Position numbers and translations under genes: made by a program
The notes under the pieces: model-generated
Databases searched by the model: none
Told to the model about the DNA's origin: nothing
What the model saw: only the letters and a program-made list of their open reading frames with translations
Source of the DNA: Siphonodentalium dalli
Taxonomy: Eukaryota; Mollusca; Scaphopoda; Gadilida; Siphonodentaliidae
Length of the DNA stretch: 64,000 bases
Assembly: GCA_032622095.1 (NCBI GenBank)
Contig: CP136061.1
Span: forward strand, 23,252,991-23,316,990
Reading direction: 5' to 3'
In this document: positions 1 to 64,000 of the stretch, one piece after another
Position numbering within the stretch: position 1 is the stretch's first letter
How the letters are laid out: each line of letters opens with the position of its first letter

Positions 1-111
1 TTTCGAAGGATTTGTGGCTCTAACCGAGAGATTCATGAATACAACGCAAGGATTTATGACCTTTTCGAAGGATTTATGGCTCTAACCCCAAGATTCATGA
101 CTACAACTCAG

Positions 112-173
112 GGATTTATGACTTTTTCGAAGGATTTATGGTTCTAACCCAGAGATTCATGAATAGAACTCAG
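112..173 (+). repeat. Three internal sub-repeats of 20, 21 and 21 bp within a monomer
   Basis: The monomer splits into 112-131, 132-152 and 153-173, beginning GGATTTATGA, GGATTTATGG and AGATTCATGA. The second and third units agree at 14 of 21 positions when aligned without gaps and both end in C.CAG. The first and second agree over their first nine bases and less well afterwards. This supports an origin of the 62-bp unit by triplication of a unit of about 21 bp followed by divergence. The pattern is visible in the sequence; the order of events is inference. Confidence 0.7.
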
Positions 174-174
174 G
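113..174 (+). repeat. Exemplar 62-bp satellite monomer (type C)
   Basis: This is one full unit in the commonest form, chosen as reference phase with base 1 = G of GATTTATGAC. Key elements are the T5 run at monomer positions 11-15, the TTCGAA dyad at 14-19, a second GATTTATG at 21-28, the TTCTAACCCAG segment at 30-40, the ATTCATGAAT dyad at 43-52 and AACTCAGG at 55-62. Positions 62 and 1-25 are nearly invariant across the window. Positions 26-61 carry the diagnostic variants, notably 26 (A/G), 28 (G/T), 30 (T/C), 32, 33, 39 (A/C), 40 (G/A), 48 (T/C), 51 (A/C/T), 54 (G/C), 58 (T/G) and 61 (G/A). Other types named here are A, B, D, E, F, G, H, I, J, K and M. Confidence 0.95.
126..164. other. Pair of dyad-symmetric elements in each monomer (TTCGAA and ATTCATGAAT)
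   Basis: In the exemplar, TTCGAA occupies 126-131 and the perfect 10-bp palindrome ATTCATGAAT occupies 155-164. Their centres are 31 bp apart, exactly half a monomer, so dyad centres recur every 31 bp along most of the array. Nearly all monomers keep TTCGAA. In monomer types ending GACTAC or GATTAC the second palindrome shrinks to TCATGA. Such elements could be protein-binding sites or could simply be inherited from the founder sequence. No binding protein can be named from the sequence. Confidence 0.75.
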
Positions 175-1228
175 GATTTATGACTTTTTCGAAGGATTTA
201 TGGTTCTAACCCAGAGATTCATGAATAGAACTCAGGGATTTAGGACTTTTTCGAAGGATTTATGGTTCTAACCCAGAGATTCATGAATAGAACTCAGGGA
301 TTTATGACTTTTTCGAAGGATTTATGGCTTTAACCCCGAGATTCATGACTACAACTCAGGGATTTATGACTTTTTCGAAGGATTTATGGTTCTAACTCAG
401 AGATTCATGAATACAACTCAGGGATTTATGACTTTTTCGAAGGATTTATGGTTCTAACCCAGAGATTCATGAATACAACTCAGGGATTTATGACTTTTTC
501 GAAGGATTTGTGGCTCTAACCCAGAGATTCATGATTACAACTCAGGGATTTATGACTTTTTCGAAGGATTTATGGTTCTAACCCAGAGATTCATGAATAG
601 AACTCAGGGATTTATGACTTTTTCGAAGGATTTATGGTTCTAACCCAGAGATTCATGAATAGAACTCAGGGATTTATGACTTTTTCGAAGGATTTATGGT
701 TCTAACCCAGAGATTCATGAATAGAACTCAGGGATTTATGACTTTTTCGAAGGATTTATGGCTTTAACCCCGAGATTCATGACTACAACTCAGGGATTTA
801 TGACTTTTTCGAAGGATTTATGGTTCTAACCCAGAGATTCATGAATACAACTCAGGGATTTATGACTTTTTCGAAGGATTTATGGTTCTAACCCAGAGAT
901 TCATGAATACAACTCAGGGATTTATGACTTTTTCGAAGGATTTGTTGCTCTAACCCAGAGATTCATGATTACAACTCAGGGATTTATGACTTTTTCGAAG
1001 GATTTGTGGCTCTAACCCAGAGATTCATGAATACAACGCAAGGATTTATGACCTTTTCGAAGGATTTATGGCTCTAACCCCAAGATTCATGACTACAACT
1101 CAGGGATTTATGACTTTTTCGAAGGATTTATGGTTCTAACCCAGAGATTCATGAATAGAACTCAGGGATTTATGACTTTTTCGAAGGATTTATGGTTCTA
1201 ACCCAGAGATTCATGAATAGAACTCAGG

Positions 1229-1415
1229 GATTTATGACTTTTTCGAAGGATTTGTGGCTCTAACCCAGAGATTCATGAATACAACTCAGGGATTTATGAC
1301 TTTTCGAAGGATTTATGGCTCAAACCCCGAGATTCATGACTACAACTCAGGGATTTATGACTTTTTTGAAGGATTTATGGTTCTAACCCAGAGATTCACG
1401 AATAGAACTCAGGGA
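1229..1415 (+). repeat. H-I-J monomer module with contraction (first of about 25 complete copies)
   Basis: The module is three monomers in fixed order. H has GTGGCTC and AATACAACTC. I begins with the 61-bp T4 form and has GGCTCAAAC and GACTACAACTC. J usually starts with TTTTTTGAAGG, where the TTCGAA dyad is lost by C to T, and carries TTCACGAATAG. The same module recurs with H 'GTGG' at 4413, 6891, 8935, 10731, 13334, 15625, 21263, 26717, 28266, 29567, 33843, 39297, 43759, 45804, 47353, 48530, 52125, 53488, 54169, 55221, 56336, 57388, 58503 and 62592. Intervals between copies are multiples of 62 minus the intervening contractions. It is the best landmark for aligning the higher-order structure. 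The 64-codon frame through each copy is a frame artefact. Confidence 0.85.
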
Positions 1416-4400
1416 TTTATGACTTTTTCGAAGGATTTATGGTTCTAACCCAGAGATTCATGAATAGAACTCAGGGATTTATGACTTTTTCGAAGAATTT
1501 ATGGTTCTAACCCAGAGATTCATGAATAGAACTCAGGGATTTATGACTTTTCGAAGGATTTATGGCTTTAACCCCGAGATTCATGACTACAACTCAGGGA
1601 TTTATGACTTTTTCGAAGGATTTATGGTTCTAACCCAGAGATTCATGAATACAACTCAGGGATTTATGACTTTTTCGAAGGATTTATGGTTCTAACCCAG
1701 AGATTCATGAATAGAACTCATGGATTTATGACTTTTTCGAAGGATTTATGGCTTTAACCCCGAGATTCATGTCTACAACTCAGGGATTTATGACTTTTTC
1801 GAAGGATTTATGGTTCTAACCCAGAGATTCATGAATACAACTCAGGGATTTATGACCTTTTCGAAGGATTTGTGGCTCTAACCCAGAGTTTCATGATTAC
1901 AACTCAGGGATTTATGACTTTTTCGAAGGATTTGTGGCTCTAACCCAGAGATTCATGAATACAACGCAAGGATTTATGACCTTTTCGAAGGATTTATGGC
2001 TCTAACCCCAAGATTCATGACTACAACTCAGGGATTTATGACTTTTTCGAAGGATTTATGGTTCTAACCCAGAGATTCATGAATAGAACTCAGGGATTTA
2101 TGACTTTTTCGAAGGATTTATGGTTCTAACCCAGAGATTCATGAATAGAACTCAGGGATTTATGACTTTTTCGAAGGATTTATGGTTCTAACCCAGAGAT
2201 TCATGAATAGAACTCAGGGATTTATGACTTTTTCGAAGGATTTATGGCTTTAACCCCGAGATTCATGACTACAACTCAGGGATTTATGACTTTTTCGAAG
2301 GATTTATGGTTCTAACCCAGAGATTCATGAATACAACTCAGGGATTTATGACTTTTTCGAAGGATTTATGGTTCTAACCCAGAGATTCATGAATACAACT
2401 CAGGGATTTATGACTTTTTCGAAGGATTTGTGGCTCTAACCCAGAGATTCATGATTACAACTCAGGGATTTATGACTTTTTCGAAGGATTTGTTGCTCTA
2501 ACCCAGAGATTCATGAATACAACGCAATGATTTATGACCTTTTCGAAGGATTTATGGCTCTAACCCCAAGATTCATGACTACAACTCAGGGATTTATGAC
2601 TTTTTCGAAGGATTTATGGTTCTAACCCAGAGATTCATGAATAGAACTCAGGGATTTATGACTTTTTCGAAGGATTTATGGTTTTAACCCAGAGATTCAT
2701 GAATAGAACTCAGGGATTTATGACTTTTTCGAAGGATTTATGGTTCTAACCCAGAGATTCATGAATAGAACTCAGGGATTTATGACTTTTTCGAAGGATT
2801 TATGGCTTTAACCCCGAGATTCATGACCACAACTCAGGGATTTATGACTTTTTCGAAGGATTTATGGTTCTAACCCAGAGATTCATGAATAGAACTCAGG
2901 GATTTATGACTTTTTCGAAGGATTTATGGTTCTAACCCAGAGATTAATGAATAGAACTCAGGGATTTATGACTTTTTCGAAGGATTTATGGTTCTAACCC
3001 AGAGATTCATGAATAGAACTCAGGGATTTATGACTTTTTCGAAGGATTTATGGTTCTAACCCAGAGATTCATGAATAGAACTCAGGGATTTATGACTTTT
3101 TCGAAGGATTTATGGCTTTAACCCCGAGATTCATGACTACAACTCAGGGATTTATGACTTTTTCGAAGGATTTATGGTTCTAACCCAGAGATTCATGAAT
3201 ACAACTCAGGGATTTATGACTTTTTCGAAGGATTTATGGTTCTAACCCAGAGATTCATGAATACAACTCAGGGATTTATGACTTTTTCGAAGGATTTGTG
3301 GCTCTAACCCAGAGATTCATGATTACAACTCAGGGATTTATGACTTTTTCGAAGGATTTGTTGCTCTAACCCAGAGATTCATGAATACAACTCAGGGATT
3401 TATGACTTTTCGAAGGATTTATGGCTCAAACCTCGAGATTCTTGACTACAACTCAGGGATTTATGACTTTTTCGAAGGATTTATGGTTCTAACCCAGAGA
3501 TTCACGAATAGAACTCAGGGATTTATGACTTTTTCGAAGGATTTATGGTTCTAACCCAGAGATTCATGAATAGAACTCAGGGATTTATGACTTTTTCGAA
3601 GGATTTATGGTTCTAACCCAGAGATTCATGAATAGAACTCAGGGATTTATGACTTTTTCGAAGGATTTATGGCTTTAACCCCGAGATTCATGACTACAAC
3701 TCAGGGATTTATGACTTTTTCGAAGGATTTATGGTTCTAACCCAGAGATTCATGAATACAACTCAGGGATTTATGACTTTTTCGAAGGATTTGTGGCTCT
3801 AACCCAGAGATTCATTATTACAACTCAGGGATTTATGACTTTTTCGAAGGATTTGTGGCTCTAACCCAGAGATTCATGAATACAACGCAGGGATTTATGA
3901 CTTTTTCGAAGGATTTGTGGCTCTAACCCAGAGATTCATGAATACAACGCAAGGATTTATGACCTTTTCGAAGGATTTATGGCTCTAACCCCAAGATTCA
4001 TGACTACAACTCAGGGATTTATGACTTTTTCGAAGGATTTATGGCTCTAACCCAGAGATTCATGAATAGAACTCAGGGATTTATAACTTTTTCGAAGGAT
4101 TTATGGTTCTAACCCAGAGATTCATGAATAGAACTCTGGGATTTATGACTTTTTCGAAGGATTTATGGCTTTAACCCCGAGATTCATGACTACAACTCAG
4201 GGATTTATGACTCTTTCGAAGGATTTATGGTTCTAACCCAGAGATTCATGAATACAACTCAGGGATTTATGACTTTTTCGAAGGATTTATGGTTCTAACC
4301 CAGAGATTCATGAATACAACTCAGGGATTTATGACTTTTTCGAAGGATTTGTGGCTCTAACCCAGAGATTCATGATTACAACTCAGGGATTTATGACTTT

Positions 4401-5637: not shown

Positions 5638-8600
5638 TTTCGAAGGATTTGTGGCTCTAACCGAGAGATTCATGAATACAACGCAAGGATTTATGACCTT
5701 TTCGAAGGATTTATGGCTCTAACCCCAAGATTCATGACTACAACTCAGGGATTTATGACTTTTTCGAAGGATTTATGGTTCTAACCCAGAGATTCATGAA
5801 TAGAACTCAGGGATTTATGACTTTTTCGAAGGATTTATGGTTCTAACCCAGAGATTCATGAATAGAACTCAGGGATTTAGGACTTTTTCGAAGGATTTAT
5901 GGTTCTAACCCAGAGATTCATGAATATAACTCAGGGATTTATGACTTTTTCGAAGGATTTATGGCTTTAACCCCGAGATTCATGACTACAACTCAGGGAT
6001 TTATGACTTTTTCGAAGGATTTATGGTTCTAACTCAGAGATTCATGAATACAACTCAGGGATTTATGACTTTTTCGAAGGATTTATGGTTCTAACCCAGA
6101 GATTCATGAATACAACTCAGGGATTTATGACTTTTTCGAAGGATTTGTGGCTCTAACCCAGAGATTCATGATTACAACTCAGGGATTTATGACTTTTTCG
6201 AAGGATTTATGGTTCTAACCCAGAGATTCATGAATAGAACTCAGGGATTTATGACTTTTTCGAAGGATTTATGGTTCTAACCCAGAGATTCATGAATAGA
6301 ACTCAGGGATTTATGACTTTTTCGAAGGATTTATGGTTCTAACCCAGAGATTCATGAATAGAACTCAGGGATTTATGACTTTTTCGAAGGATTTATGGCT
6401 TTAACCCCGAGATTCATGACTACAACTCAGGGATTTATGACTTTTTCGAAGGATTTATGGTTCTAACCCAGAGATTCATGAATACAACTCAGGGATTTAT
6501 GACTTTTTCGAAGGATTTATGGTTCTAACCCAGAGATTCATGAATACAACTCAGGGATTTATGACTTTTTCGAAGGATTTGTTGCTCTAACCCAGAGATT
6601 CATGATTACAACTCAGGGATTTATGACTTTTTCGAAGGATTTGTGGCTCTAACCCAGAGATTCATGAATACAACGCAAGGATTTATGACCTTTTCGAAGG
6701 ATTTATGGCTCTAACCCCAAGATTCATGACTACAACTCAGGGATTTATGACTTTTTCGAAGGATTTATGGTTCTAACCCAGAGATTCATGAATAGAACTC
6801 AGGGATTTATGACTTTTTCGAAGGATTTATGGTTCTAACCCAGAGATTCATGAATAGAACTCAGGGATTTATGACTTTTTCGAAGGATTTGTGGCTCTAA
6901 CCCAGAGATTCATGAATACAACTCAGGGATTTATGACTTTTCGAAGGATTTATGGCTCAAACCCCGAGATTCATGACTACAACTCAGGGATTTATGACTT
7001 TTTTGAAGGATTTATGGTTCTAACCCAGAGATTCACGAATAGAACTCAGGGATTTATGACTTTTTCGAAGGATTTATGGTTCTAACCCAGAGATTCATGA
7101 ATAGAACTCAGGGATTTATGACTTTTTCGAAGAATTTATGGTTCTAACCCAGAGATTCATGAATAGAACTCAGGGATTTATGACTTTTCGAAGGATTTAT
7201 GGCTTTAACCCCGAGATTCATGACTACAACTCAGGGATTTATGACTTTTTCGAAGGATTTATGGTTCTAACCCAGAGATTCATGAATACAACTCAGGGAT
7301 TTATGACTTTTTCGAAGGATTTATGGTTCTAACCCAGAGATTCATGAATAGAACTCATGGATTTATGACTTTTTCGAAGGATTTATGGCTTTAACCCCGA
7401 GATTCATGTCTACAACTCAGGGATTTATGACTTTTTCGAAGGATTTATGGTTCTAACCCAGAGATTCATGAATACAACTCAGGGATTTATGACCTTTTCG
7501 AAGGATTTGTGGCTCTAACCCAGAGATTCATGATTACAACTCAGGGATTTATGACTTTTTCGAAGGATTTGTGGCTCTAACCCAGAGATTCATGAATACA
7601 ACGCAAGGATTTATGACCTTTTCGAAGGATTTATGGCTCTAACCCCAAGATTCATGACTACAACTCAGGGATTTATGACTTTTTCGAAGGATTTATGGTT
7701 CTAACCCAGAGATTCATGAATAGAACTCAGGGATTTATGACTTTTTCGAAGGATTTATGGTTCTAACCCAGAGATTCATGAATAGAACTCAGGGATTTAT
7801 GACTTTTTCGAAGGATTTATGGTTCTAACCCAGAGATTCATGAATAGAACTCAGGGATTTATGACTTTTTCGAAGGATTTATGGCTTTAACCCCGAGATT
7901 CATGACTACAACTCAGGGATTTATGACTTTTTCGAAGGATTTATGGTTCTAACCCAGAGATTCATGAATACAACTCAGGGATTTATGACTTTTTCGAAGG
8001 ATTTATGGTTCTAACCCAGAGATTCATGAATACAACTCAGGGATTTATGACTTTTTCGAAGGATTTGTGGCTCTAACCCAGAGATTCATGATTACAACTC
8101 AGGGATTTATGACTTTTTCGAAGGATTTGTTGCTCTAACCCAGAGATTCATGAATACAACGCAATGATTTATGACCTTTTCGAAGGATTTATGGCTCTAA
8201 CCCCAAGATTCATGACTACAACTCAGGGATTTATGACTTTTTCGAAGGATTTATGGTTCTAACCCAGAGATTCATGAATAGAACTCAGGGATTTATGACT
8301 TTTTCGAAGGATTTATGGTTCTAACCCAGAGATTCATGAATAGAACTCAGGGATTTATGACTTTTTCGAAGGATTTATGGTTCTAACCCAGAGATTCATG
8401 AATAGAACTCAGGGATTTATGACTTTTTCGAAGGATTTATGGCTTTAACCCCGAGATTCATGACTACAACTCAGGGATTTATGACTTTTTCGAAGGATTT
8501 ATGGTTCTAACCCAGAGATTCATGAATACAACTCAGGGATTTATGACTTTTTCGAAGGATTTATGGTTCTAACCCAGAGATTCATGAATACAACTCAGGG

Positions 8601-10690
8601 ATTTATGACTTTTTCGAAGGATTTGTTGCTCTAACCCAGAGATTCATGATTACAACTCAGGGATTTATGACTTTTTCGAAGGATTTGTGGCTCTAACCCA
8701 GAGATTCATGAATACAACGCAAGGATTTATGACCTTTTCGAAGGATTTATGGCTCTAACCCCAAGATTCATGACTACAACTCAGGGATTTATGACTTTTT
8801 CGAAGGATTTATGGTTCTAACCCAGAGATTCATGAATAGAACTCAGGGATTTATGACTTTTTCGAAGGATTTATGGTTCTAACCCAGAGATTCATGAATA
8901 GAACTCAGGGATTTATGACTTTTTCGAAGGATTTGTGGCTCTAACCCAGAGATTCATGAATACAACTCAGGGATTTATGACTTTTCGAAGGATTTATGGC
9001 TCAAACCCCGAGATTCATGACTACAACTCAGGGATTTATGACTTTTTTGAAGGATTTATGGTTCTAACCCAGAGATTCACGAATAGAACTCAGGGATTTA
9101 TGACTTTTTCGAAGGATTTATGGTTCTAACCCAGAGATTCATGAATAGAACTCAGGGATTTATGACTTTTTCGAAGAATTTATGGTTCTAACCCAGAGAT
9201 TCATGAATAGAACTCAGGGATTTATGACTTTTCGAAGGATTTATGGCTTTAACCCCGAGATTCATGACTACAACTCAGGGATTTATGACTTTTTCGAAGG
9301 ATTTATGGTTCTAACCCAGAGATTCATGAATACAACTCAGGGATTTATGACTTTTTCGAAGGATTTATGGTTCTAACCCAGAGATTCATGAATAGAACTC
9401 ATGGATTTATGACTTTTTCGAAGGATTTATGGCTTTAACCCCGAGATTCATGTCTACAACTCAGGGATTTATGACTTTTTCGAAGGATTTATGGTTCTAA
9501 CCCAGAGATTCATGAATACAACTCAGGGATTTATGACCTTTTCGAAGGATTTGTGGCTCTAACCCAGAGATTCATGATTACAACTCAGGGATTTATGACT
9601 TTTTCGAAGGATTTGTGGCTCTAACCCAGAGATTCATGAATACAACGCAAGGATTTATGACCTTTTCGAAGGATTTATGGCTCTAACCCCAAGATTCATG
9701 ACTACAACTCAGGGATTTATGACTTTTTCGAAGGATTTATGGTTCTAACCCAGAGATTCATGAATAGAACTCAGGGATTTATGACTTTTTCGAAGGATTT
9801 ATGGTTCTAACCCAGAGATTCATGAATAGAACTCAGGGATTTATGACTTTTTCGAAGGATTTATGGTTCTAACCCAGAGATTCATGAATAGAACTCAGGG
9901 ATTTATGACTTTTTCGAAGGATTTATGGCTTTAACCCCGAGATTCATGACTACAACTCAGGGATTTATGACTTTTTCGAAGGATTTATGGTTCTAACCCA
10001 GAGATTCATGAATACAACTCAGGGATTTATGACTTTTTCGAAGGATTTATGGTTCTAACCCAGAGATTCATGAATACAACTCAGGGATTTATGACTTTTT
10101 CGAAGGATTTGTGGCTCTAACCCAGAGATTCATGATTACAACTCAGGGATTTATGACTTTTTCGAAGGATTTGTTGCTCTAACCCAGAGATTCATGAATA
10201 CAACGCAATGATTTATGACCTTTTCGAAGGATTTATGGCTCTAACCCCAAGATTCATGACTACAACTCAGGGATTTATGACTTTTTCGAAGGATTTATGG
10301 TTCTAACCCAGAGATTCATGAATAGAACTCAGGGATTTATGACTTTTTCGAAGGATTTATGGTTTTAACCCAGAGATTCATGAATAGAACTCAGGGATTT
10401 ATGACTTTTTCGAAGGATTTATGGTTCTAACCCAGAGATTCATGAATAGAACTCAGGGATTTATGACTTTTTCGAAGGATTTATGGCTTTAACCCCGAGA
10501 TTCATGACCACAACTCAGGGATTTATGACTTTTTCGAAGGATTTATGGTTCTAACCCAGAGATTCATGAATACAACTCAGGGATTTATGACTTTTTCGAA
10601 GGATTTATGGTTCTAACCCAGAGATTCATGAATACAACTCAGGGATTTATGACTTTTTCGAAGGATTTGTGGCTCTAACCCAGAGATTCA
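5638..10690 (+). repeat. Block alpha, copy 2, with a 2,044-bp tandem duplication
   Basis: Positions from 5,638 to about 8,517 follow positions 1 to about 2,880 at an offset of 5,637. Within it, the stretch from about 6,200 repeats again from about 8,245 at an offset of 2,044 bp (33 monomers minus 2). Markers are GTTGCTC at 6,581 and 8,625, H-I-J at 6,891 and 8,935, and second contractions at 7,182 and 9,226. The 2.7-kb marker pair GGTTTTAACCC and GACCAC of copy 1 recurs at 10,361 and 10,502 (offset 7,681), so the third sub-copy is the closest relative of the 2.7-kb region. No gene is present. Confidence 0.75.
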
Positions 10691-15000: not shown

Positions 15001-17650
15001 ATTTGTGGCTCTAACCCAGAGATTCATTATTACAACTCAGGGATTTATGACTTTTTCGAAGGATTTGTGGCTCTAACCCAGAGATTCATGAATACAACGC
15101 AGGGATTTATGACTTTTTCGAAGGATTTGTGGCTCTAACCCAGAGATTCATGAATACAACGCAAGGATTTATGACCTTTTCGAAGGATTTATGGCTCTAA
15201 CCCCAAGATTCATGACTACAACTCAGGGATTTATGACTTTTTCGAAGGATTTATGGCTCTAACCCAGAGATTCATGAATAGAACTCAGGGATTTATAACT
15301 TTTTCGAAGGATTTATGGTTCTAACCCAGAGATTCATGAATAGAACTCAGGGATTTATGACTTTTTCGAAGGATTTATGGCTTTAACCCCGAGATTCATG
15401 ACTACAACTCAGGGATTTATGACTCTTTCGAAGGATTTATGGTTCTAACCCAGAGATTCATGAATACAACTCAGGGATTTATGACTTTTTCGAAGGATTT
15501 ATGGTTCTAACCCAGAGATTCATGAATACAACTCAGGGATTTATGACTTTTTCGAAGGATTTGTGGCTCTAACCCAGAGATTCATGATTACAACTCAGGG
15601 ATTTATGACTTTTTCGAAGGATTTGTGGCTCTAACCCAGAGATTCATGAATACAACTCAGGGATTTATGACTTTTCGAAGGATTTATGGCTCAAACCCCG
15701 AGATTCATGACTACAACTCAGGGATTTATGACTTTTTTGAAGGATTTATGGTTCTAACCCAGAGATTCACGAATAGAACTCAGGGATTTATGACTTTTTC
15801 GAAGGATTTATGGTTCTAACCCAGAGATTCATGAATAGAACTCAGGGATTTATGACTTTTTCGAAGGATTTATGGTTCTAACCCAGAGATTCATGAATAG
15901 AACTCAGGGATTTATGACTTTTCGAAGGATTTATGGCTTTAACCCCGAGATTCATGACTACAACTCAGGGATTTATGACTTTTTCGAAGGATTTATGGTT
16001 CTAACCCAGAGATTCATGAATACAACTCAGGGATTTATGACTTTTTCGAAGGATTTATGGTTCTAACCCAGAGATTCATGAATAGAACTCATGGATTTAT
16101 GACTTTTTCGAAGGATTTATGGCTTTAACCCCGAGATTCATGTCTACAACTCAGGGATTTATGACTTTTTCGAAGGATTTATGGCTTTAACCCCGAGATT
16201 CATGACTACAACTCAGGGATTTATGACGTTTTCGAAGGATTTATGGTTCTAACCCAGAGATTCATGAATACAACTCAGGGATTTATGACTTTTTCGAAGG
16301 AATTGTGGCTCTAACCCAGAGATTCATGATTACAACTCAGGGATTTATGACTTTTTCGAAGGATTTGTGGCTCTAACCCAGAGATTCATGAATACAACGC
16401 AAGGATTTATGACCTTTTCGAAGGATTTATGGCTCTAACCCCAAGATTCATGACTACAACTCAGGGATTTATGACTTTTTCGAAGGATTTATGGTTCTAA
16501 CCCAGAGATTCATGAATAGAACTCAGGGATTTATGACTTTTTCGAAGGATTTATGGTTCTAACCCAGAGATTCATGAATAGAACTCAGGGATTTATGACT
16601 TTTTCGAAGGATTTATGGTTCTAACCCAGAGATTCATGAATAGAACTCAGGGATTTATGACTTTTTCGAAGGATTTATGGCTTTAACCCCGAGATTCATG
16701 ACTACAACTCAGGGATTTATGACTTTTTCGAAGGATTTATGGTTCTAACCCAGAGATTCATGAATACAACTCAGGGATTTATGACTTTTTCGAAGGATTT
16801 ATGGTTCTAACCCAGAGATTCATGAATACAACTCAGGGATTTATGACTTTTTCGAAGGATTTGTGGCTCTAACCCAGAGATTCATGATTACAACTCAGGG
16901 ATTTATGACTTTTTCGAAGGATTTGTTGCTCTAACCCAGAGATTCATGAATACAACTCAGGGATTTATGACTTTTCGAAGGATTTATGGCTCAAACCTCG
17001 AGATTCATGACTACAACTCAGGGATTTATGACTTTTTCGAAGGATTTATGGTTCTAACCCAGAGATTCACGAATAGAACTCAGGGATTTATGACTTTTTC
17101 GAAGGATTTATGGTTCTAACCCAGAGATTCATGAATAGAACTCAGGGATTTATGACTTTTTCGAAGGATTTATGGTTCTAACCCAGAGATTCATGAATAG
17201 AACTCAGGGATTTATGACTTTTTCGAAGGATTTATGGCTTTAACCCCGAGATTCATGACTACAACTCAGGGATTTATGACTTTTTCGAAGGATTTATGGT
17301 TCTAACCCAGAGATTCATGAATACAACTCAGGGATTTATGACTATTTCGAAGGATTTGTGGCTCTAACCCAGAGATTCATTATTACAACTCAGGGATTTA
17401 TGACTTTTTCGAAGGATTTGTGGCTCTAACCCAGAGATTCATGAATACAACGCAGGGATTTATGACTTTTTCGAAGGATTTGTGGCTCTAACCCAGAGAT
17501 TCATGAATACAACGCAAGGATTTATGACATTTTCGAAGGATTTATGGCTCTAACCCCGAGATTCATGACTACAACTCAGGGATTTATGACTTTTTCGAAG
17601 GATTTATGGTTCTAACCCAGAGATTCATGAATACAACTCAGGGATTTATG
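12081..17650 (+). repeat. Block alpha, copy 3 (868 bp shorter internally)
   Basis: It begins exactly as window position 1 and follows copy 1 at an offset of 12,080 to about 14.58 kb, then at 11,212 after an internal 14-monomer difference. Shared markers with copy 1 at 11,212 are TTCTTGAC (14,651), CATTATTAC (15,025), the H-I-J module (15,625) and GGAATTGTGG (16,299). Private changes include AATAAAACGC at about 13,111, GGATTTGTGACC at about 13,930 and GACGTTTTCG at about 16,226. The right boundary is blurred because a 1,363-bp duplication starts inside it. There is no gene. Confidence 0.75.
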
Positions 17651-18985
17651 ACTTTTTCGAAGGAATTGTGGCTCTAACCCAGAGATTCATGATTACAACT
17701 CAGGGATTTATGACTTTTTCGAAGGATTTGTGGCTCTAACCCAGAGATTCATGAATACAACGCAAGGATTTATGACCTTTTCGAAGGATTTATGGCTCTA
17801 ACCCCAAGATTCATGACTACAACTCAGGGATTTATGACTTTTTCGAAGGATTTATGGTTCTAACCCAGAGATTCATGAATAGAACTCAGGGATTTATGAC
17901 TTTTTCGAAGGATTTATGGTTCTAACCCAGAGATTCATGAATAGAACTCAGGGATTTATGACTTTTTCGAAGGATTTATGGTTCTAACCCAGAGATTCAT
18001 GAATAGAACTCAGGGATTTATGACTTTTTCGAAGGATTTATGGCTTTAACCCCGAGATTCATGACTACAACTCAGGGATTTATGACTTTTTCGAAGGATT
18101 TATGGTTCTAACCCAGAGATTCATGAATACAACTCAGGGATTTATGACTTTTTCGAAGGATTTATGGTTCTAACCCAGAGATTCATGAATACAACTCAGG
18201 GATTTATGACTTTTTCGAAGGATTTGTGGCTCTAACCCAGAGATTCATGATTACAACTCAGGGATTTATGACTTTTTCGAAGGATTTGTTGCTCTAACCC
18301 AGAGATTCATGAATACAACTCAGGGATTTATGACTTTTCGAAGGATTTATGGCTCAAACCTCGAGATTCATGACTACAACTCAGGGATTTATGACTTTTT
18401 CGAAGGATTTATGGTTCTAACCCAGAGATTCACGAATAGAACTCAGGGATTTATGACTTTTTCGAAGGATTTATGGTTCTAACCCAGAGATTCATGAATA
18501 GAACTCAGGGATTTATGACTTTTTCGAAGGATTTATGGTTCTAACCCAGAGATTCATGAATAGAACTCAGGGATTTATGACTTTTTCGAAGGATTTATGG
18601 CTTTAACCCCGAGATTCATGACTACAACTCAGGGATTTATGACTTTTTCGAAGGATTTATGGTTCTAACCCAGAGATTCATGAATACAACTCAGGGATTT
18701 ATGACTATTTCGAAGGATTTGTGGCTCTAACCCAGAGATTCATTATTACAACTCAGGGATTTATGACTTTTTCGAAGGATTTGTGGCTCTAACCCAGAGA
18801 TTCATGAATACAACGCAGGGATTTATGACTTTTTCGAAGGATTTGTGGCTCTAACCCAGAGATTCATGAATACAACGCAAGGATTTATGACATTTTCGAA
18901 GGATTTATGGCTCTAACCCCGAGATTCATGACTACAACTCAGGGATTTATGACTTTTTCGAAGGATTTATGGTTCTAACCCAGAG
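16260..18985 (+). repeat. 1,363-bp tandem duplication (22 monomers minus 1)
   Basis: Four markers repeat at exactly 1,363 bp: GGAATTGTGG at 16,299 and 17,662; the T4 contraction at 16,969 and 18,332; ATGACTATTTCG at 17,338 and 18,701; and CATTATTAC at 17,378 and 18,741. The two copies are adjacent, with a junction near 17.6 kb. The second copy leads into block beta. The outer boundaries are approximate because neighbouring monomers are nearly identical. Confidence 0.8.
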
Positions 18986-19047
18986 ATTCATGAATAGAAC
19001 TCAGGGATTTATGACTTTTTCGAAGGATTTATGGTTCTAACCCAGAG

Positions 19048-25490: not shown

Positions 25491-25637
25491 GAGATTCATG
25501 ACTACAACTCAGGGATTTATGACTTTTTCGAAGGATTTATGGTTCTAACCCAGAGATTCATGAATACAACTCAGGGATTTATGACTTTTTCGAAGGATTT
25601 GTGGCTCTAACCCAGAGATTCATGATTACAACTCAGG

Positions 25638-52990: not shown

Positions 52991-52991
52991 T

Positions 52992-54355
52992 ATGGCTCTA
53001 ACCCCAAGATTCATGACTACAACTCAGGGATTTATGACTTTTTCGAAGGATTTATGGTTCTAACCCAGAGATTCATGAATAGAACTCAGGGATTTATGAC
53101 TTTTTCGAAGGATTTATGGTTCTAATCCAGAGATTCATGAATAGAACTCAGGGATTTATGACTTTTTCGAAGGATTTATGGTTCTAACCCAGAGATTCAT
53201 GAATAGAACTCAGGGATTTATGACTTTTTCGAAGGATTTATGGCTTTAACCCCGAGATTCATGACTACAACTCAGGGATTTATGACTTTTTCGAAGGATT
53301 TATGGTTCTAACCCAGAGATTCATGAATACAACTCAGGGATTTATGACTTTTTCGAAGGATTTATGGTTCTAACCCAGAGATTCATGAATACAACTCAGG
53401 GATTTATGACTTTTTCGAAGGATTTGTGGCTCTAACCCAGAGATTCATGATTACAACTCAGGGATTTATGACTTTTTCGAAGGATTTGTGGCTCTAACCC
53501 AGAGATTCATGAATACAACTCAGGGATTTATGACTTTTCGAAGGATTTATGGCTCAAACCCCGAGATTCATGACTACAACTCAGGGATTTATGACTTTTT
53601 TGAAGGATTTATGGTTCTAACCCAGAGATTCACGAATAGAACTCAGGGATTTATGACTTTTTCGAAGGATTTATGGCTCTAACCCCAAGATTCATGACTA
53701 CAACTCAGGGATTTATGACTTTTTCGAAGGATTTATGGTTCTAACCCAGAGATTCATGAATAGAACTCAGGGATTTATGACTTTTTCGAAGGATTTATGG
53801 TTCTAATCCAGAGATTCATGAATAGAACTCAGGGATTTATGACTTTTTCGAAGGATTTATGGTTCTAACCCAGAGATTCATGAATAGAACTCAGGGATTT
53901 ATGACTTTTTCGAAGGATTTATGGCTTTAACCCCGAGATTCATGACTACAACTCAGGGATTTATGACTTTTTCGAAGGATTTATGGTTCTAACCCAGAGA
54001 TTCATGAATACAACTCAGGGATTTATGACTTTTTCGAAGGATTTATGGTTCTAACCCAGAGATTCATGAATACAACTCAGGGATTTATGACTTTTTCGAA
54101 GGATTTGTGGCTCTAACCCAGAGATTCATGATTACAACTCAGGGATTTATGACTTTTTCGAAGGATTTGTGGCTCTAACCCAGAGATTCATGAATACAAC
54201 TCAGGGATTTATGACTTTTCGAAGGATTTATGGCTCAAACCCCGAGATTCATGACTACAACTCAGGGATTTATGACTTTTTTGAAGGATTTATGGTTCTA
54301 ACCCAGAGATTCACGAATAGAACTCAGGGATTTATGACTTTTTCGAAGGATTTAT
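52992..54355 (+). repeat. 681-bp tandem duplication (11 monomers minus 1)
   Basis: The stretch from a B-type monomer (GGCTCTAACCCCAAG) at about 52,992 through the H-I-J module at 53,488 repeats from about 53,674 through the module at 54,169. GGTTCTAATCCAG sits at about 53,118 and 53,799. The junction near 53,672 falls inside the module, so J runs straight into a B-type monomer there (GGCTC instead of GGTTC). This also changes the last residue of the spurious reading frame from F to L. Confidence 0.85.
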
Positions 54356-57300
54356 GGTTCTAACCCAGAGATTCATGAATAGAACTCAGGGATTTATGAC
54401 TTTTTCGAAGGATTTATGGTTCTAACCCAGAGATTCATGAATAGAACTCAGGGATTTATGACTTTTCGAAGGATTTATGGCTTTAACCCCGAGATTCATG
54501 ACTACAACTCAGGGATTTATGACTTTTTCGAAGGATTTATGGTTCTAACCCAGAGATTCATGAATACAACTCAGGGATTTATGACTTTTTCGAAGGATTT
54601 ATGGTTCTAACCCAGAGATTCATGAATAGAACTCATGGATTTATGACTTTTTCGAAGGATTTATGGCTTTAACCCCGAGATTCATGTCTACAACTCAGGG
54701 ATTTATGACTTTTTCGAAGGATTTATGGTTCTAACCCAGAGATTCATGAATACAACTCAGGGATTTATGACTTTTTCGAAGGATTTGTGGCTCTAACCCA
54801 GAGATTCATGATTACAACTCAGGGATTTATGACTTTTTCGAAGGATTTGTGGCTCTAACCCAGAGATTCATGAATACAACGCAAGGATTTATGACCTTTT
54901 CGAAGGATCTATGGATCTAACCCCAAGATTCATGACTACAACTCAGGGATTTATGACTTTTTCGAAGGATTTATGGTTCTAACCCAGAGATTCATGAATA
55001 GAACTCAGGGATTTATGACTTTTTCGAAAGATTTAATGTTCTAACCCAGAGATTCATGAATAGAACTCAGGGATTTATGACTTTTTCGAAGGATTTATGG
55101 CTTTAACCCCGAGATTCATAACTACAACTCAGGGATTTATGACTTTTTCGAAGGATTTATGGTTCTAACCCAGAGATTCATGATTACAACTCAGGGATTT
55201 ATGACTTTTTCGAAGGATTTGTGGCTCTAACCCAGAGATTCATGAATACAACTCAGGAATTTATGACTTTTCGAAGGATTTATGGCTCAAACCTCGAGAT
55301 TCATGACTACAACTCAGGGATTTATGACTTTTTCGAAGGATTTATGGTTCTAACCCAGAGATTCACGAATAGAACTCAGGGATTTATGACTTTTTCGAAG
55401 GATTTATGGCTCTAACCCAGAGATTCATGAATAGAACTCAGGGATTTATGACTTTTTCGAAGGATTTATGGTTCTAACCCAGAGATTCATGAATAGAACT
55501 CAGGGATTTATGACTTTTTCGAAGGATTTATGGTTCTAACCCAGAGATTCATGAATAGAACTCAGGGATTTATGACTTTTTCGAAGGATTTATGGCTTTA
55601 ACCCCGAGATTCATGACTACAACTCAGGGATTTATGACTTTTTCGAAGGATTTATGGTTCTAACCCAGAGATTCATTAATACAACTCAGGGATTTATGAC
55701 TTTTTCGAAGGATTTGTGGCTCTAACCCAGAGATTCATGATTACAACTCAGGGATTTATGACTTTTTCGAAGGATTTGTGGCTCTAACCCAGAGATTCAT
55801 GAATACAACGCAAGGATTTATGACCTTTTCGAAGGATTTATGGCTCTAACCCCAAGATTCATGACTACAACTCAGGGATTTATGACTTTTTCGAAGGATT
55901 TATGGTTCTAACCCAGAGATTCATGAATAGAACTCAGGGATTTATGACTTTTTCGAAGGATTTATGGTTCTAATCCAGAGATTCATGAATAGAACTCAGG
56001 GATTTATGACTTTTTCGAAGGATTTATGGTTCTAACCCAGAGATTCATGAATAGAACTCAGGGATTTATGACTTTTTCGAAGGATTTATGGCTTTAACCC
56101 CGAGATTCATGACTACAACTCAGGGATTTATGACTTTTTCGAAGGATTTATGGTTCTAACCCAGAGATTCATGAATACAACTCAGGGATTTATGACTTTT
56201 TCGAAGGATTTATGGTTCTAACCCAGAGATTCATGAATACAACTCAGGGATTTATGACTTTTTCGAAGGATTTGTGGCTCTAACCCAGAGATTCATGATT
56301 ACAACTCAGGGATTTATGACTTTTTCGAAGGATTTGTGGCTCTAACCCAGAGATTCATGAATACAACTCAGGGATTTATGACTTTTCGAAGGATTTATGG
56401 CTCAAACCCCGAGATTCATGACTACAACTCAGGGATTTATGACTTTTTTGAAGGATTTATGGTTCTAACCCAGAGATTCACGAATAGAACTCAGGGATTT
56501 ATGACTTTTTCGAAGGATTTATGGTTCTAACCCAGAGATTCATGAATAGAACTCAGGGATTTATGACTTTTTCGAAGGATTTATGGTTCTAACCCAGAGA
56601 TTCATGAATAGAACTCAGGGATTTATGACTTTTCGAAGGATTTATGGCTTTAACCCCGAGATTCATGACTACAACTCAGGGATTTATGACTTTTTCGAAG
56701 GATTTATGGTTCTAACCCAGAGATTCATGAATACAACTCAGGGATTTATGACTTTTTCGAAGGATTTATGGTTCTAACCCAGAGATTCATGAATAGAACT
56801 CATGGATTTATGACTTTTTCGAAGGATTTATGGCTTTAACCCCGAGATTCATGTCTACAACTCAGGGATTTATGACTTTTTCGAAGGATTTATGGTTCTA
56901 ACCCAGAGATTCATGAATACAACTCAGGGATTTATGACTTTTTCGAAGGATTTGTGGCTCTAACCCAGAGATTCATGATTACAACTCAGGGATTTATGAC
57001 TTTTTCGAAGGATTTGTGGCTCTAACCCAGAGATTCATGAATACAACGCAAGGATTTATGACCTTTTCGAAGGATCTATGGATCTAACCCCAAGATTCAT
57101 GACTACAACTCAGGGATTTATGACTTTTTCGAAGGATTTATGGTTCTAACCCAGAGATTCATGAATAGAACTCAGGGATTTATGACTTTTTCGAAAGATT
57201 TAATGTTCTAACCCAGAGATTCATGAATAGAACTCAGGGATTTATGACTTTTTCGAAGGATTTATGGCTTTAACCCCGAGATTCATAACTACAACTCAGG

Positions 57301-57690
57301 GATTTATGACTTTTTCGAAGGATTTATGGTTCTAACCCAGAGATTCATGATTACAACTCAGGGATTTATGACTTTTTCGAAGGATTTGTGGCTCTAACCC
57401 AGAGATTCATGAATACAACTCAGGAATTTATGACTTTTCGAAGGATTTATGGCTCAAACCTCGAGATTCATGACTACAACTCAGGGATTTATGACTTTTT
57501 CGAAGGATTTATGGTTCTAACCCAGAGATTCACGAATAGAACTCAGGGATTTATGACTTTTTCGAAGGATTTATGGCTCTAACCCAGAGATTCATGAATA
57601 GAACTCAGGGATTTATGACTTTTTCGAAGGATTTATGGTTCTAACCCAGAGATTCATGAATAGAACTCAGGGATTTATGACTTTTTCGAA
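53670..57690 (+). repeat. 2,167-bp-spaced duplication (35 monomers minus 3)
   Basis: Positions from about 53,670 to 55,520 match about 55,837-57,687 at an offset of 2,167. Markers are GGTTCTAATCCAG (53,799/55,966), the module at 54,169/56,336, the second contraction at 54,460/56,627, GGATCTATGGATC (54,906/57,073), CGAAAGATTTAATG (55,025/57,192) and the module at 55,221/57,388. The match ends where the first copy has one more C monomer before D than the second. The module spacing alternates 1,052 and 1,115 bp. Confidence 0.8.
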
Positions 57691-58810
57691 GGATTTATGG
57701 CTTTAACCCCGAGATTCATGACTACAACTCAGGGATTTATGACTTTTTCGAAGGATTTATGGTTCTAACCCAGAGATTCATGAATACAACTCAGGGATTT
57801 ATGACTTTTTCGAAGGATTTGTGGCTCTAACCCAGAGATTCATTATTACAACTCAGGGATTTATGACTTTTTCGAAGGATTTGTGGCTCTAACCCAGAGA
57901 TTCATGAATACAACGCAGGGATTTATGACTTTTTCGAAGGATTTGTGGCTCTAACCCAGAGATTCATGAATACAACGCAAGGATTTATGACATTTTCGAA
58001 GGATTTATGGCTCTAACCCCGAGATTCATGACTACAACTCAGGGATTTATGACTTTTTCGAAGGATTTATGGTTCTAACCCAGAGATTCATGAATAGAAC
58101 TCAGGGATTTATGACTTTTTCGAAGGATTTATGGTTCTAACCCAGAGATTAATGAATAGAACTCAGGGATTTATGACTTTTTCGAAGGATTTATGGTTCT
58201 AACCCAGAGATTCATGAATACAACGCAGGGATTTATGACTTTTTCGAAGGATTTGTGGCTCTAACCCAGAGATTCGTGAATACAACGCAAGGATTTATGA
58301 CCTTTTCGAAGGATTTATGGCTCTAACCCCGAGATTCATGACTACAGCTCAGGGATTTATGACTTTTTCGAAGGATTTATGGTTCTAACCCAGAGATTCA
58401 TGAATAGAACTCAGGGATTTATGACTTTTTCGAAGGATTTATGGTTCTAACCCCGAGATTCATGATTACAACTCAGGGATTTATGACTTTTTCAAAGGAT
58501 TTGTGGCTCTAACCCAGAGATTCATGAATACAACTCAGGAATTTATGACTTTTCGAAGGATTTATGGCTCAAACCTCGAGATTCATGACTACAACTCAGG
58601 GATTTATGACTTTTTCGAAGGATTTATGGTTCTAACCCAGAGATTCACGAATAGAACTCAGGGATTTATGACTTTTTCGAAGGATTTATGGCTCTAACCC
58701 AGAGATTCATGAATAGAACTCAGGGATTTATGACTTTTTCGAAGGATTTATGGTTCTAACCCAGAGATTCATGAATAGAACTCAGGGATTTATGACTTTT
58801 TCGAAGGATT
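57690..58810 (+). repeat. Truncated block-beta head and re-entry to H-I-J module
   Basis: From about 57.69 to 58.44 kb the sequence follows about 18.59-19.34 kb at an offset of 39,100: CATTATTAC at 57,841, GATTAATGAATAG at about 58,146 and TTCGTGAATAC at 58,273. It breaks near 58,445, where a C-like monomer with CCCCGAG runs into GATTACAAC and another H-I-J module (58,503) that is 1,115 bp after the one at 57,388. TTCAAAGG at 58,491 is a private loss of the TTCGAA dyad. No gene is seen. Confidence 0.7.
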
Positions 58811-58811
58811 T

Positions 58812-61800
58812 ATGGTTCTAACCCAGAGATTCTTGACTACAACTCAGGGATTTATGACTTTTTCGAAGGATTATGGCTCTAACCCCGAGATTCATGAATA
58901 CAACGCAGGGATTTATGACTTTTTCGAAGGATTTATGGTTCTAACCCAGAGATTTATGATTACAACTCAGGGATTTATGACTGTTTTGAAGGATTTATGG
59001 CTCTAACCCGGAGATTCATGAATAGAACTCAGGGATTTATGACTTTTTCGAAGGATTTATGGTTCTAACCCAGAGATTCATGATTACAACTCAGGGATTT
59101 ATGACTGTTTTGAAGGATTTATGGCTCTAACCCGGATATTCATGAATACAACGCAGGGATTTATGACTTTTTCGAAGGATTTGTGGCTCTAACCCCGAGA
59201 TTCATGACTACAACTCAGGGAGTTATGACGTTTTCGAAGGATTTATGGCTCTTACCCAGAGATTCATGATTACAACTCAGGGATTTTTGACTTTTTCGAA
59301 GGATTTGTGGCTCTAACCCAGAGATTCAAGAATACAACGCAGGGATTTATGACTTTTTTGAAGGATTTGTGGCTCTATCGCAGAGATTCATGAATACAAC
59401 TCAGGCATTCATGACTTTTTCGAAGGATTTATGTCTCTAACCCCGAGATTCATGACTACAACTCAGGGATTTATGACTTTTTCGAAGGATTTATGGCTCT
59501 AACCCCGAGATTCATGACTACAACTCAGGGAGTTATGACTTTTTCGAAGGATTTATGGTTCTAACCCAGAGATTCATGAATAGAACTCAGGGATTTATGA
59601 CTTTTTCGAAGGATTTATGGTTCTAACCCAGAGATTCATGAATAGAACTCAGGGATTTATGACTTTTTCGAAGGATTTATGGTTCTAACCCAGAGATTCA
59701 TGATTACAACGCAGGGATTTATGACTTTTTCGAAGGATTTGTGGCTCTAACCCAGAGATTCGTGAATACAACGCAAGGATTTATGACCTTTTCGAAGGAT
59801 TTATGGCTCTAACCCCGAGATTCATGACTACAACTCAGGGATTTATGACTTTTTCGAAGGATTTATGGTTCTAACCCAGAGATTCATGAATAGAACTCAG
59901 GGATTTATGACTTTTTCGAAGGATTTGTGGTTCTTACCCAGTGATTCATGAATACAACTCAGGGATTTATGACTTTTTCAAAGGATTTATGGTTCTAACC
60001 CAGAGATTCATGAATACAACTCAGGAATTTATTACTTTTTCGAAGGATTTATGGCTCTAACCCAGAGATTCTTGACTACAACTCAGGGATTTGTGACTTT
60101 TTCGAAGGATTTGTGGCTCTAACCCAGAGATTCATGAATACAACGCAGGGATTTATGACTTTTTCGAAGGATTTGTGGCTCTATCGCAGAGATTCATGAA
60201 TACAACTCTGGGATTCATGACTTTTTGGAAGGATTTATGTCTCTAACCCCGAGATTCATGACTACAACTAAGGGATTTATGACTTTTTCGAAGGATTTAT
60301 GGCTCTAACCCCGAGATTCATGACTACAACTCAGGGAGTTATGACTTTTTCGAAGGATTTATGGTTCTAACCCAGAGATTCATGAATAGAACTCAGGGAT
60401 TTATGACTTTTTCGAAGGATTTATGGTTCTAACCCAGAGATTCATGAATAGAACTCAGGGATTTATGACTTTTTCGAAGGATTTATGGTTCTAACCCAGA
60501 GATTCATGAATAGAACTCAGGGATTGATGACTTTTTCGAAGGATTTATGGTTCTAACCCAGAGATTCATGAATACAACTCAGGGATTTATGACTTTTTCG
60601 AAGGATTTATGGTTCTAACCCAGAGATTCATGATTACAACTCAGGGATTTATGACTTTATCGAAGGATTTATGGCTCTAACCCAGAGATTCGTGATTACA
60701 ACTCAGGGATTTATGACTTTTTTGAAGGATTTATGGCTCTAACCCGGAGATTCATGAATACAATTATGGGATTTGTGACTTTTTCGATGGATTTATGGCT
60801 CTAACCCCGAGATTCATGACTACAACTCAGGGATTTATGACTTTTTCGAAGGATTTGTGGTTCTTACCCAGTGATTCATGAATACAACTCAGGGATTTAT
60901 GACTTTTTCAAAGGATTTATGGTTCTAACCCAGAGATTCATGAATACAACTCAGGGATTTATGACTTTTTCAAAGGATTTATGGTTCTAACCCAGAGATT
61001 CATGAATACAACTCAGGAATTTATGACTTTTTCGAAGGATTTATGGCTCTAACCCAGAGATTCTTGACTACAACTCAGGGATTTATGACTTTTTCGAAGG
61101 ATTATGGCTCTAACCCCGAGATTCATGAATACAACGCAGGGATTTATGACTTTTTCGAAGGATTTATGGTTCTAACCCAGAGATTTATGATTACAACTCA
61201 GGGATTTATGACTGTTTTGAAGGATTTATGGCTCTAACCCGGAGATTCATGAATAGAACTCAGGGATTTATGACTTTTTCGAAGGATTTATGGCTCTAAC
61301 CCCGAGATTCATGACTACAACTCGGGGATTTATGACTTTTTCGAAGGATTTGTGGCTCTAATCCAGAGATTCATGAATACAACGCAGGGATTTATGACTT
61401 TTTCGAAGGATTTATGGTTCTAACCCAGAGATTCATGATTACAACTCAGGGATTTATGACTGTTTTGAAGGATTTATGGCTCTAACCCGGATATTCATGA
61501 ATACAACGCAGGGATTTATGACTTTTTCGAAGGATTTGTGGCTCTAACCCCGAGATTCATGACTACAACTCAGGGAGTTATGACGTTTTCGAAGGATTTA
61601 TGGCTCTCACCCAGAGATTCATGATTACAACTCAGGGATTTTTGACTTTTTCGAAGGATTTGTGGCTCTAACCCAGAGATTCAAGAATACAACGCAGGGA
61701 TTTATGACTTTTTTGAAGGATTTGTGGCTCTATCGCAGAGATTCATGAATACAACTCAGGCATTCATGACTTTTTCGAAGGATTTATGTCTCTAACCCCG

Positions 61801-61915
61801 AGATTCATGACTACAACTCAGGGATTTATGACTTTTTCGAAGGATTTATGGCTCTAACCCCGAGATTCATGACTACAACTCAGGGAGTTATGACTTTTTC
61901 GAAGGATTTATGGTT
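58812..61915 (+). repeat. Internal duplication of the diverged island (offset 2,231 then 2,355 bp)
   Basis: The contracted monomer, GACTGTTTTGAAGG and CCCGGAG repeat at 2,231 bp (58,868/61,099). Farther right, CCCGGATATTC (59,131/61,486), GGGAGTTATGACG (59,218/61,573) and CTATCGCAG (59,375/61,730) repeat at 2,355 bp. The extra 124 bp is exactly two monomers inserted in the second copy near 61.28-61.40 kb. A shorter echo of 806 bp (13 monomers) links CTATCGCAG at 59,375 and 60,181. Confidence 0.8.
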
Positions 61916-61920
61916 CTAAC
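58812..61920 (+). repeat. Diverged satellite island
   Basis: The monomers here are still 62 bp and in register but carry many variants rare or absent elsewhere: GACTGTTTTGAAGG (58,980, 59,104, about 61,211 and 61,459), CCCGGAGATTC and CCCGGATATTC, GGGAGTTATGAC, GGGATTTTTGAC, CTATCGCAGAG (59,375, 60,181 and 61,730), GGCATTCATGAC, TTTTTGGAAGG (about 60,223) and TTCAAAGG. Two monomers are contracted by a T lost from GGATTTATGG rather than from the T5 run (58,868 and 61,099). The diagnostic A-B-C-D-E-F order is mostly absent. It looks like an older, less homogenised part of the array. No gene or foreign insert is present. Confidence 0.85.
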
Positions 61921-63650
61921 CCAGAGATTCATGAATACAACTCAGGGATTTATGACTTTTTCGAAGGATTTATGGTTCTAACCCAGAGATTCATGAATAG
62001 AACTCATGGATTTATGACTTTTTCGAAGGATTTATGGCTTTAACCCCGAGATTCATGTCTACAACTCAGGGATTTATGACTTTTTCGAAGGATTTATGGT
62101 TCTAACCCAGAGATTCATGAATACAACTCAGGGATTTATGACTTTTTCGAAGGATTTGTGGCTCTAACCCAGAGATTCATGATTACAACTCAGGGATTTA
62201 TGACTTTTTCGAAGGATTTGTGGCTCTAACCCAGAGATTCATGAATACAACGCAAGGATTTATGACCTTTTCGAAGGATCTATGGATCTAACCCCAAGAT
62301 TCATGACTACAACTCAGGGATTTATGACTTTTTCGAAGGATTTATGGTTCTAACCCAGAGATTCATGAATAGAACTCAGGGATTTATGACTTTTTCGAAA
62401 GATTTAATGTTCTAACCCAGAGATTCATGAATAGAACTCAGGGATTTATGACTTTTTCGAAGGATTTATGGCTTTAACCCCGAGATTCATAACTACAACT
62501 CAGGGATTTATGACTTTTTCGAAGGATTTATGGTTCTAACCCAGAGATTCATGATTACAACTCAGGGATTTATGACTTTTTCGAAGGATTTGTGGCTCTA
62601 ACCCAGAGATTCATGAATACAACTCAGGAATTTATGACTTTTCGAAGGATTTATGGCTCAAACCTCGAGATTCATGACTACAACTCAGGGATTTATGACT
62701 TTTTCGAAGGATTTATGGTTCTAACCCAGAGATTCACGAATAGAATTCAGGGATTTATGACTTTTTCGAAGGATTTATGGCTCTAACCCAGAGATTCATG
62801 AATAGAACTCAGGGATTTATGACTTTTTCGAAGGATTTATGGTTCTAACCCAGAGATTCATGAATAGAACTCAGGGATTTATGACTTTTTCGAAGGATTT
62901 ATGGCTTTAACCCCGAGATTCATGACTACAACTCAGGGATTTATGACTTTTTCGAAGGATTTATGGTTCTAACCCAGAGATTCATGAATACAACTCAGGG
63001 ATTTATGACTTTTTCGAAGGATTTGTGGCTCTAACCCAGAGATTCATTATTACAACTCAGGGATTTATGACTTTTTCGAAGGATTTGTGGCTCTAACCCA
63101 GAGATTCATGAATACAACGCAGGGATTTATGACTTTTTCGAAGGATTTGTGGCTCTAACCCAGAGATTCATGAATACAACGCAAGGATTTATGACATTTT
63201 CGAAGGATTTATGGCTCTAACCCCGAGATTCATGACTACAACTCAGGGATTTATGACTTTTTCGAAGGATTTATGGTTCTAACCCAGAGATTCATGAATA
63301 GAACTCAGGGATTTATGACTTTTTCGAAGGATTTATGGTTCTAACCCAGAGATTAATGAATAGAACTCAGGGATTTATGACTTTTTCGAAGGATTTATGG
63401 TTCTAACCCAGAGATTCATGAATACAACGCAGGGATTTATGACTTTTTCGAAAGATTTGTGGCTCTAACCCAGAGATTCGTGAATACAACGCAAGGATTT
63501 ATGACCTTTTCGAAGGATTTATGGCTCTAACCCCGAGATTCATGACTACAACTCAGGGATTTATGACTTTTTCGAAGGATTTATGGTTCTAACCCAGAGA
63601 TTCATGAATAGAACTCAGGGATTTATGACTTTTTCGAAGGATTTATGGTT
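61920..63650 (+). repeat. Copy of the 56.7-58.4 kb segment (offset 5,204 bp)
   Basis: After the diverged island, the sequence returns abruptly to homogenised satellite matching about 56,716-58,445 at 5,204 bp (84 monomers minus 4): AACTCATGG at 62,003 (56,799), GGATCTATGGATC at about 62,277, CGAAAGATTTAATG at about 62,396, the module at 62,592 and CATTATTAC at 63,045. The two segments flank the island, which suggests that it was enclosed by a duplication. Where the left copy breaks at 58,445, this one continues normally. Confidence 0.8.
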
Positions 63651-64000
63651 CTAACCCAGAGATTCATGAATAGAACTCAGGGATTTATGACTTTTTCGAA
63701 GGATTTATGGTTCTAACCCAGAGATTCATGAATAGAACTCAGGGATTTATGACTTTTTTGAAGGATTTATGGCTCTAACCCCGAGATTCATGACTACAAC
63801 TCAGGGATTTATGACTTTTTCGAAGGATTTATGGTTCTAACCCAGAGATTCATGAATACAACTCAGGGATTTATGACTTTTTCGAAGGATTTGTGGCTCT
63901 AACCCAGAGATTCATGAATACAACGCAGGGATTTATGACTTTTTCGAAGGATTTATGGCTCTAACCCAGAGATTCATGAATACAACGCAAGGATTTATGA
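62850..64000 (+). repeat. Start of a further block-beta copy, cut by the window end
   Basis: Markers match about 18.55-19.70 kb at a constant 44,304 bp: CATTATTAC 63,045 (18,741), TTCGTGAATAC 63,477 (19,173) and GACTTTTTTGAAGG 63,751 (19,447). The last base of the window corresponds to 19,696 and lies in the AACGCAAGG monomer. A small difference is GGCTCTAACCCC here versus GGCTTTAACCCC at 19.46 kb. The array very likely continues with more beta sequence past the window. Confidence 0.8.

Follow-up and report, generated by a model that had tools for sequence, protein, structure and literature searches.

What keeps a 62-bp repeat in strict register over 64 kb, how did such an array come to be, and does its homogeneity point to a centromere? 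Long pure arrays with higher-order repeats are a standard form of eukaryotic satellite DNA, and the window analysed here, i. e. the whole stretch of 64,000 bp (all positions given are window positions on the plus strand), is filled by an array of this kind. TRF and wrap-around alignment agree on one uninterrupted array of 1,033 monomers from position 1 to 64000, with a G+C content of about 37%. The single row returned by TRF (1-64,000, period 62, 1033.0 copies, 93% matches, 0% indels) spans the entire window, the outcome of a check proposed along with the earlier sequence-only reading, and three mononucleotide shuffles of the window gave 1, 0 and 0 rows. In the wrap-around alignment to the 62-bp consensus all 64,000 of 64,000 bases were placed with no insertion and 43 single-base deletions; the first base corresponds to monomer position 1 and the last to position 59, three bases short of a full period. 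The monomers are 62 bp long in 989 cases and 61 bp in 43, and the final one is cut to 59 bp by the window end, adding up to 64,000 bp. The sequence-only reading had arrived at 1,033 x 62 - 3 - 43 = 64,000, and this sum is exact to the base; likewise, its statement that no further net indel, transposon or unique sequence is present was borne out by the alignment, with 0 insertions and only the 43 one-base deletions. All 1,033 monomers in the window lie head-to-tail on one strand, so that many adjacent copies of one unit in the same orientation, the arrangement by which a satellite is recognised, occupy it from end to end. The G+C content is even (36.9-37.6% in 4-kb steps). Neither TRF nor the wrap-around alignment detected foreign DNA or insertions in the 64 kb; moreover, the window contains no N bases, no open reading frame of at least 100 amino acids, and no match at the gathering threshold to any of 4,227 Rfam families.

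The monomer is itself built of smaller units: alignment and self-match identify it as three degenerate copies of a 21-bp unit, a feature missed in the sequence-only reading. In a copy identical to the consensus (435..496), three units of 21, 21 and 20 bp share the motif GATTYATG. Compared with itself, the consensus gives its highest match count at a shift of 21 (33 of 62 positions), a maximum this high being found in 0.08% of 20,000 shuffles (P 0.0008), and the trimer score of the 21/21/20-bp split was reached by none of 300 shuffles; the ungapped identities among the three units are 13/21, 13/20 and 12/20. For WW dinucleotides, the strongest periodic component lies at 10.33 bp, with six repeats in each monomer (P 0.014 in one of several tests). 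The 10.33-bp component is also raised for AA/TT (P 0.017), yet here a 5.2-bp component is stronger, and the 20.7-bp components of the dinucleotides are ordinary (P 0.21 and 0.66). Three other properties of the monomer were ruled out as explanations: intrinsic curvature, calculated in a wedge model, is exceeded by 26% of 1,000 shuffles; the best hairpin has a z of -1.38 and is equalled in folding by 16 of 200 shuffles; and a 10-bp palindrome occurs in 9% of 5,000 shuffled monomers. The palindrome in question, ATTCATGAAT, is perfect at consensus positions 31-40 and broken in 352 of the 1,033 copies by a C or T at position 39. The sole CpG of the consensus (in TTCGAA, monomer positions 4-5) is retained in 982 of 1,033 monomers, with a C to T change in 46.

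The monomers in turn form an irregular higher-order repeat of 8-9 monomers, which the sequence-only reading had overlooked. Counting the cut last monomer, there are 128 distinct monomer sequences. Over lags 1-59, the identity between monomers peaks at lag 9 (0.950) and lag 8 (0.947), and both values exceed the maximum of 0.940 reached in 300 shuffles of the monomer order. Adjacent monomers are less alike (0.937 at lag 1) than repeats of the higher-order unit, as is the rule for a higher-order repeat. The longest repeated run of identical monomers comprises 72 monomers, as compared to at most 7 in 50 order shuffles. In a code of 14 monomer classes, in which rarer haplotypes were given to the nearest class, there are 33 occurrences of the string EFAAACBBD (9 monomers, 558 bp) and 9 of an 8-monomer form, with other variants interspersed. 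One of these, E F A A H G I A a in place of E F A A A C B B D, is found by the class code at 993..1548; this region contains an H-class contraction at 1301 and an A-class contraction at 1548.

The most recent layer is a series of kilobase-scale duplications by which the array has expanded, and this expansion too had gone unnoticed. As many as 925 of the 1,033 monomers belong to blocks that are 30 or more monomers long and have a twin in the window with at most 8 mismatches per 1,860 bp (at most 0.43%), and 623 lie in such twinned blocks with at most one mismatch; in five permuted monomer orders, the best 30-monomer pair had 60-67 mismatches each. Blocks at 17 offsets passed the threshold, with differences of 0-0.38%: those at offsets of 33, 35, 52, 91, 104 and 124 monomers differ by 0-0.27%, and those at larger offsets by up to 0.38%. 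A full tandem copy, in which the block equals or exceeds the offset in length, is present at offsets of 33 and 72 monomers, whereas the block is shorter than the offset at 35, 52, 91, 104 and 203 monomers, nearly full at 35 and 203. These differences lend support to the earlier description of the array as long, transposon-free and actively homogenised within the window, and together with the alignment the analysis of monomer order confirms that its copies vary by substitutions and by gain or loss of whole monomers.

Four of the duplications serve as examples. One, at an offset of 203 monomers (12,580 bp), pairs 17593..27694 with 30173..40274 in the block comparison, with 163 monomers matched and 11 mismatches (0.11%). 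In another, 72 monomers (4,462 bp) are duplicated perfectly in direct tandem, the first copy lying at 35813..40274 and the second at 40275..44736. The exact run at the 4,462-bp offset extends over 4,498 bp (35790-40287). When the second 72-monomer copy was removed in silico, the 203-offset match lengthened until it covered 171 of 203 monomers, with a total of 12 mismatches; since this removal lets the match run on, the 72-monomer duplication is nested in the second copy of the 203-offset pair and younger than that pair. At an offset of 33 monomers, a tandem duplication covers 6196..10655, its matched block of 39 monomers exceeding the offset (2 mismatches). The blocks at an offset of 35 monomers (2,167 bp) occupy 53660..57683; the copies share 30 of 35 monomers unchanged and are identical over 1,875 bp.

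The longest stretch outside the twinned blocks is an older, more diverged patch of 54 monomers at 58490..61834, for which the rest of the window offers no near-identical block of 30 monomers. Here, 16 of 54 monomers have an identical counterpart outside their own region, versus 944 of 979 in the remainder. Both contractions in the TTT run fall in this patch, and it contains an internal duplication of its own at offsets of 36 and 38 monomers. The patch is perhaps a relic of an older layer of the array.

These observations are best read, with high confidence, as a eukaryotic nuclear satellite that arose by layered amplification and has been homogenised by exchange in monomer register. As suggested by the trimer signal, a unit of about 21 bp would have been tripled and diverged to give the 62-bp monomer. 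Variants of this monomer were then amplified as the irregular 8-9-monomer higher-order repeat seen in the class pattern, and the latest step was the duplication of blocks of tens to about 200 monomers, visible as near-identical copies. Since monomer register is never lost along the array, each duplication comprises a whole number of monomers. The junctions of the duplicated blocks bear on the kind of register that was kept. Random monomer pairs differ by 3.9 bases per monomer; at the junctions of the 72 pair, the mean is 4.25 upstream and 4.25 downstream, for the 35 pair the values are 3.4 and 2.6, for the 33 pair 3.9 and 0.9, and the 203 pair has 1-7 mismatched bases upstream. The flanks of the four junctions thus mostly match the random-pair level and lend no support to exchange guided by higher-order likeness; therefore, the higher-order register did not constrain the exchanges. 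Exchange outside this register would also account for the irregularity of the higher-order pattern. The homology available for it would be the roughly 94% likeness among monomers, and the process was probably an exchange or repair between misaligned sister copies that depends on homology, with unequal crossing over and break-induced or synthesis-dependent copying as candidate forms. The pattern would fit gene conversion, break-induced replication and unequal crossing over alike. As to its role, the satellite is likely to be structural, as part of bulk heterochromatin, with a centromere as one plausible site.

The site itself matters, since the sequence-only reading had taken a long, transposon-free, actively homogenised array as what is expected at a functional centromere core. 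An uninterrupted and homogenised array cannot separate a centromere from other heterochromatin because both types share this architecture. The array may, with about an even chance, be a satellite of non-centromeric heterochromatin, i. e. of a subtelomere, a knob, a sex chromosome or a B chromosome. Nothing among the sequence features seen is specific for centromeres, and such satellites are common according to a survey of tandem repeats and a study of Vicia faba (PMC4053949, PMC5895790); a positive sign of this location is lacking as well, the window being satellite from end to end with no telomere repeat or unique flank.

That the array forms a functional centromere core carrying the centromeric histone, and owes its homogeneity to this role, is a serious possibility that falls somewhat short of being probable. 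In being long, uninterrupted, recently homogenised and organised in a higher-order repeat it resembles many plant and animal centromeres, and the WW component at 10.33 bp, six per monomer, would suit this role (P 0.014, one of several tests), although for AA/TT alone the 5.2-bp component exceeds that at 10.33 bp. The CENP-B box, NTTCGNNNNANNCGGGN, has nine essential bases. The consensus agrees with it at six of the nine, a level equalled or exceeded by 1,430 of 3,000 shuffles, and the box was discarded as a candidate on this ground. With each of the 1,033 monomers closed on itself, the best agreement is 6/9 in 773 monomers, 7/9 in 257, 8/9 in 3 and 9/9 in none, so that the nine essential bases of a CENP-B-box satellite are found together in no monomer; agreement at chance level argues against a centromere core. 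The comparative data point both ways: the survey reports that, of 171 species with Sanger data, 76 had a clear higher-order structure, and that there is no fixed monomer length at centromeres, but the same architecture is found in non-centromeric satellites, and in maize the knob repeats outnumber CentC (PMC4053949). Similarly, the V. faba study describes centromeric monomers of 44 to 2033 bp alongside non-centromeric satellites, with seven satellites enriched in CenH3 and the other analysed clusters not (PMC5895790). It is tempting to go further and to speculate on an undescribed centromere satellite with an unusually short 62-bp monomer, phasing by six helical turns, and kilobase-scale turnover that keeps the monomer but not the higher-order register; we would regard this as rather doubtful.

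Part of the recent duplication pattern might instead be an assembly artefact, with a block repeated or mis-joined by the assembler. The exact adjacent duplication of 4,462 bp may have arisen very recently, or it may reflect an assembly error: its copies are identical over the 4,498-bp run, the 35-monomer-offset pair is identical over 1,875 bp, and the flanks of the 72-pair junction are no more alike than random monomers. We nevertheless consider an artefact unlikely, as divergence among the other blocks is graded (0.04-0.38%) over many offsets and there are few sporadic changes in homopolymers; moreover, the repeat array as such would remain.

Amplification in layers also bears on the length of the monomer. 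The sequence-only reading had called the economy of indels striking and had placed 43 contractions individually. This number is right, and 41 of the 43 shorten the TTTTT run, the other 2 the TTT run; however, 33 are on a class H background, 8 on class A and 2 on one diverged monomer type that is present twice. Because all of them fall on three monomer backgrounds, the 43 contractions probably represent about three inherited events rather than 43, and this shared ancestry makes the bookkeeping less remarkable. The substitutions comprise 83 distinct alleles (31 transitions and 52 transversions). About three indel events against 83 substitution alleles are few if indels make up 10% of mutations (binomial P 0.02) and ordinary if they make up 5% (P 0.37), both values being rough as distinct alleles are not independent events and the indel count is inferred from the three backgrounds; the claimed economy holds at the higher share but is unremarkable at the lower. 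It is tempered, too, by the fact that the array has been copied so recently that most monomers have recent common ancestry. That selection, by nucleosome or protein phasing, keeps the monomer length and hence indels few is improbable: the low P at a 10% indel share and the WW periodicity at 10.33 bp would agree with it, but the P of 0.37 at 5%, the dependence among alleles, and the ordinary curvature (exceeded by 26% of 1,000 shuffles) and energy of the hairpin (z -1.38; 16/200 shuffles fold equally well) speak against it, and recent common ancestry together with exchange in monomer register would suffice. The strict monomer length would thus reflect exchanges that kept the monomer register, and the little time that has passed since the array was last copied.

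A eukaryotic origin is suggested by the kind of sequence and by searches of non-eukaryotic collections, which yielded no true match. One 17-base consensus piece matched 29 stretches in GTDB, once each, which is about the chance level (an estimated 30 or so are expected for 257 billion bases on two strands), and one viral contig. A second 17-base piece was present at none of these 30 GTDB and viral loci, two further exact-pattern scans of viral sequences yielded nothing, and BLAST with the first 3,000 of the 64,000 bases found nothing, whether in distant mode against plasmids and phages or, for E. coli genomes, in near mode only. Consensus strings of 16-17 letters gave no hit in the text of 5.39 million papers, a weak sign since satellites are usually deposited in databases. 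Other items of this size in the literature are not seen to describe this array: the "62 bp" of a goat gene deletion, a frog PcP190 region and a shared fragment in a nematode study are different things, and in cattle a satellite unit of about 62 bp, which might conceivably be related, mediates a deletion in a ROR2 intron. The array is an ordinary kind of sequence, and its family, as judged by a comparison that covered prokaryotic, viral, phage and plasmid collections, is perhaps undescribed.

Known satellites offer parallels for each level of this organisation. The chicken CNM repeat is 41-42 bp long and built of units of about 21 bp. By this description its subunits are like those of the window monomer, a dimer there and a trimer here. 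Primate alpha satellite, as is generally known, resembles the array in having diverged monomers within a larger repeated unit and long stretches in a single register; in contrast, the higher-order unit of the window is irregular, with 8-9 monomers and many variants, and its agreement with the CENP-B box is at chance. The monomer of human alpha satellite measures 171 bp in the survey, versus 62 bp here, and the short-monomer centromere satellites of plants listed there, such as that of soybean with 92 bp, are like the window in having a monomer well below nucleosome size (PMC4053949). In size, the centromeric monomers of V. faba, of 44 bp and up, offer a similar parallel (PMC5895790). The general knowledge of satellites is left unchanged by this array, and a centromere claim needs other data. 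What the window provides is a clean example of turnover in a short-monomer satellite, with nested duplications whose sizes are known and which are directly legible in the sequence, and these readable duplications are useful both for measuring turnover rates and for judging how assemblers perform on repeats.
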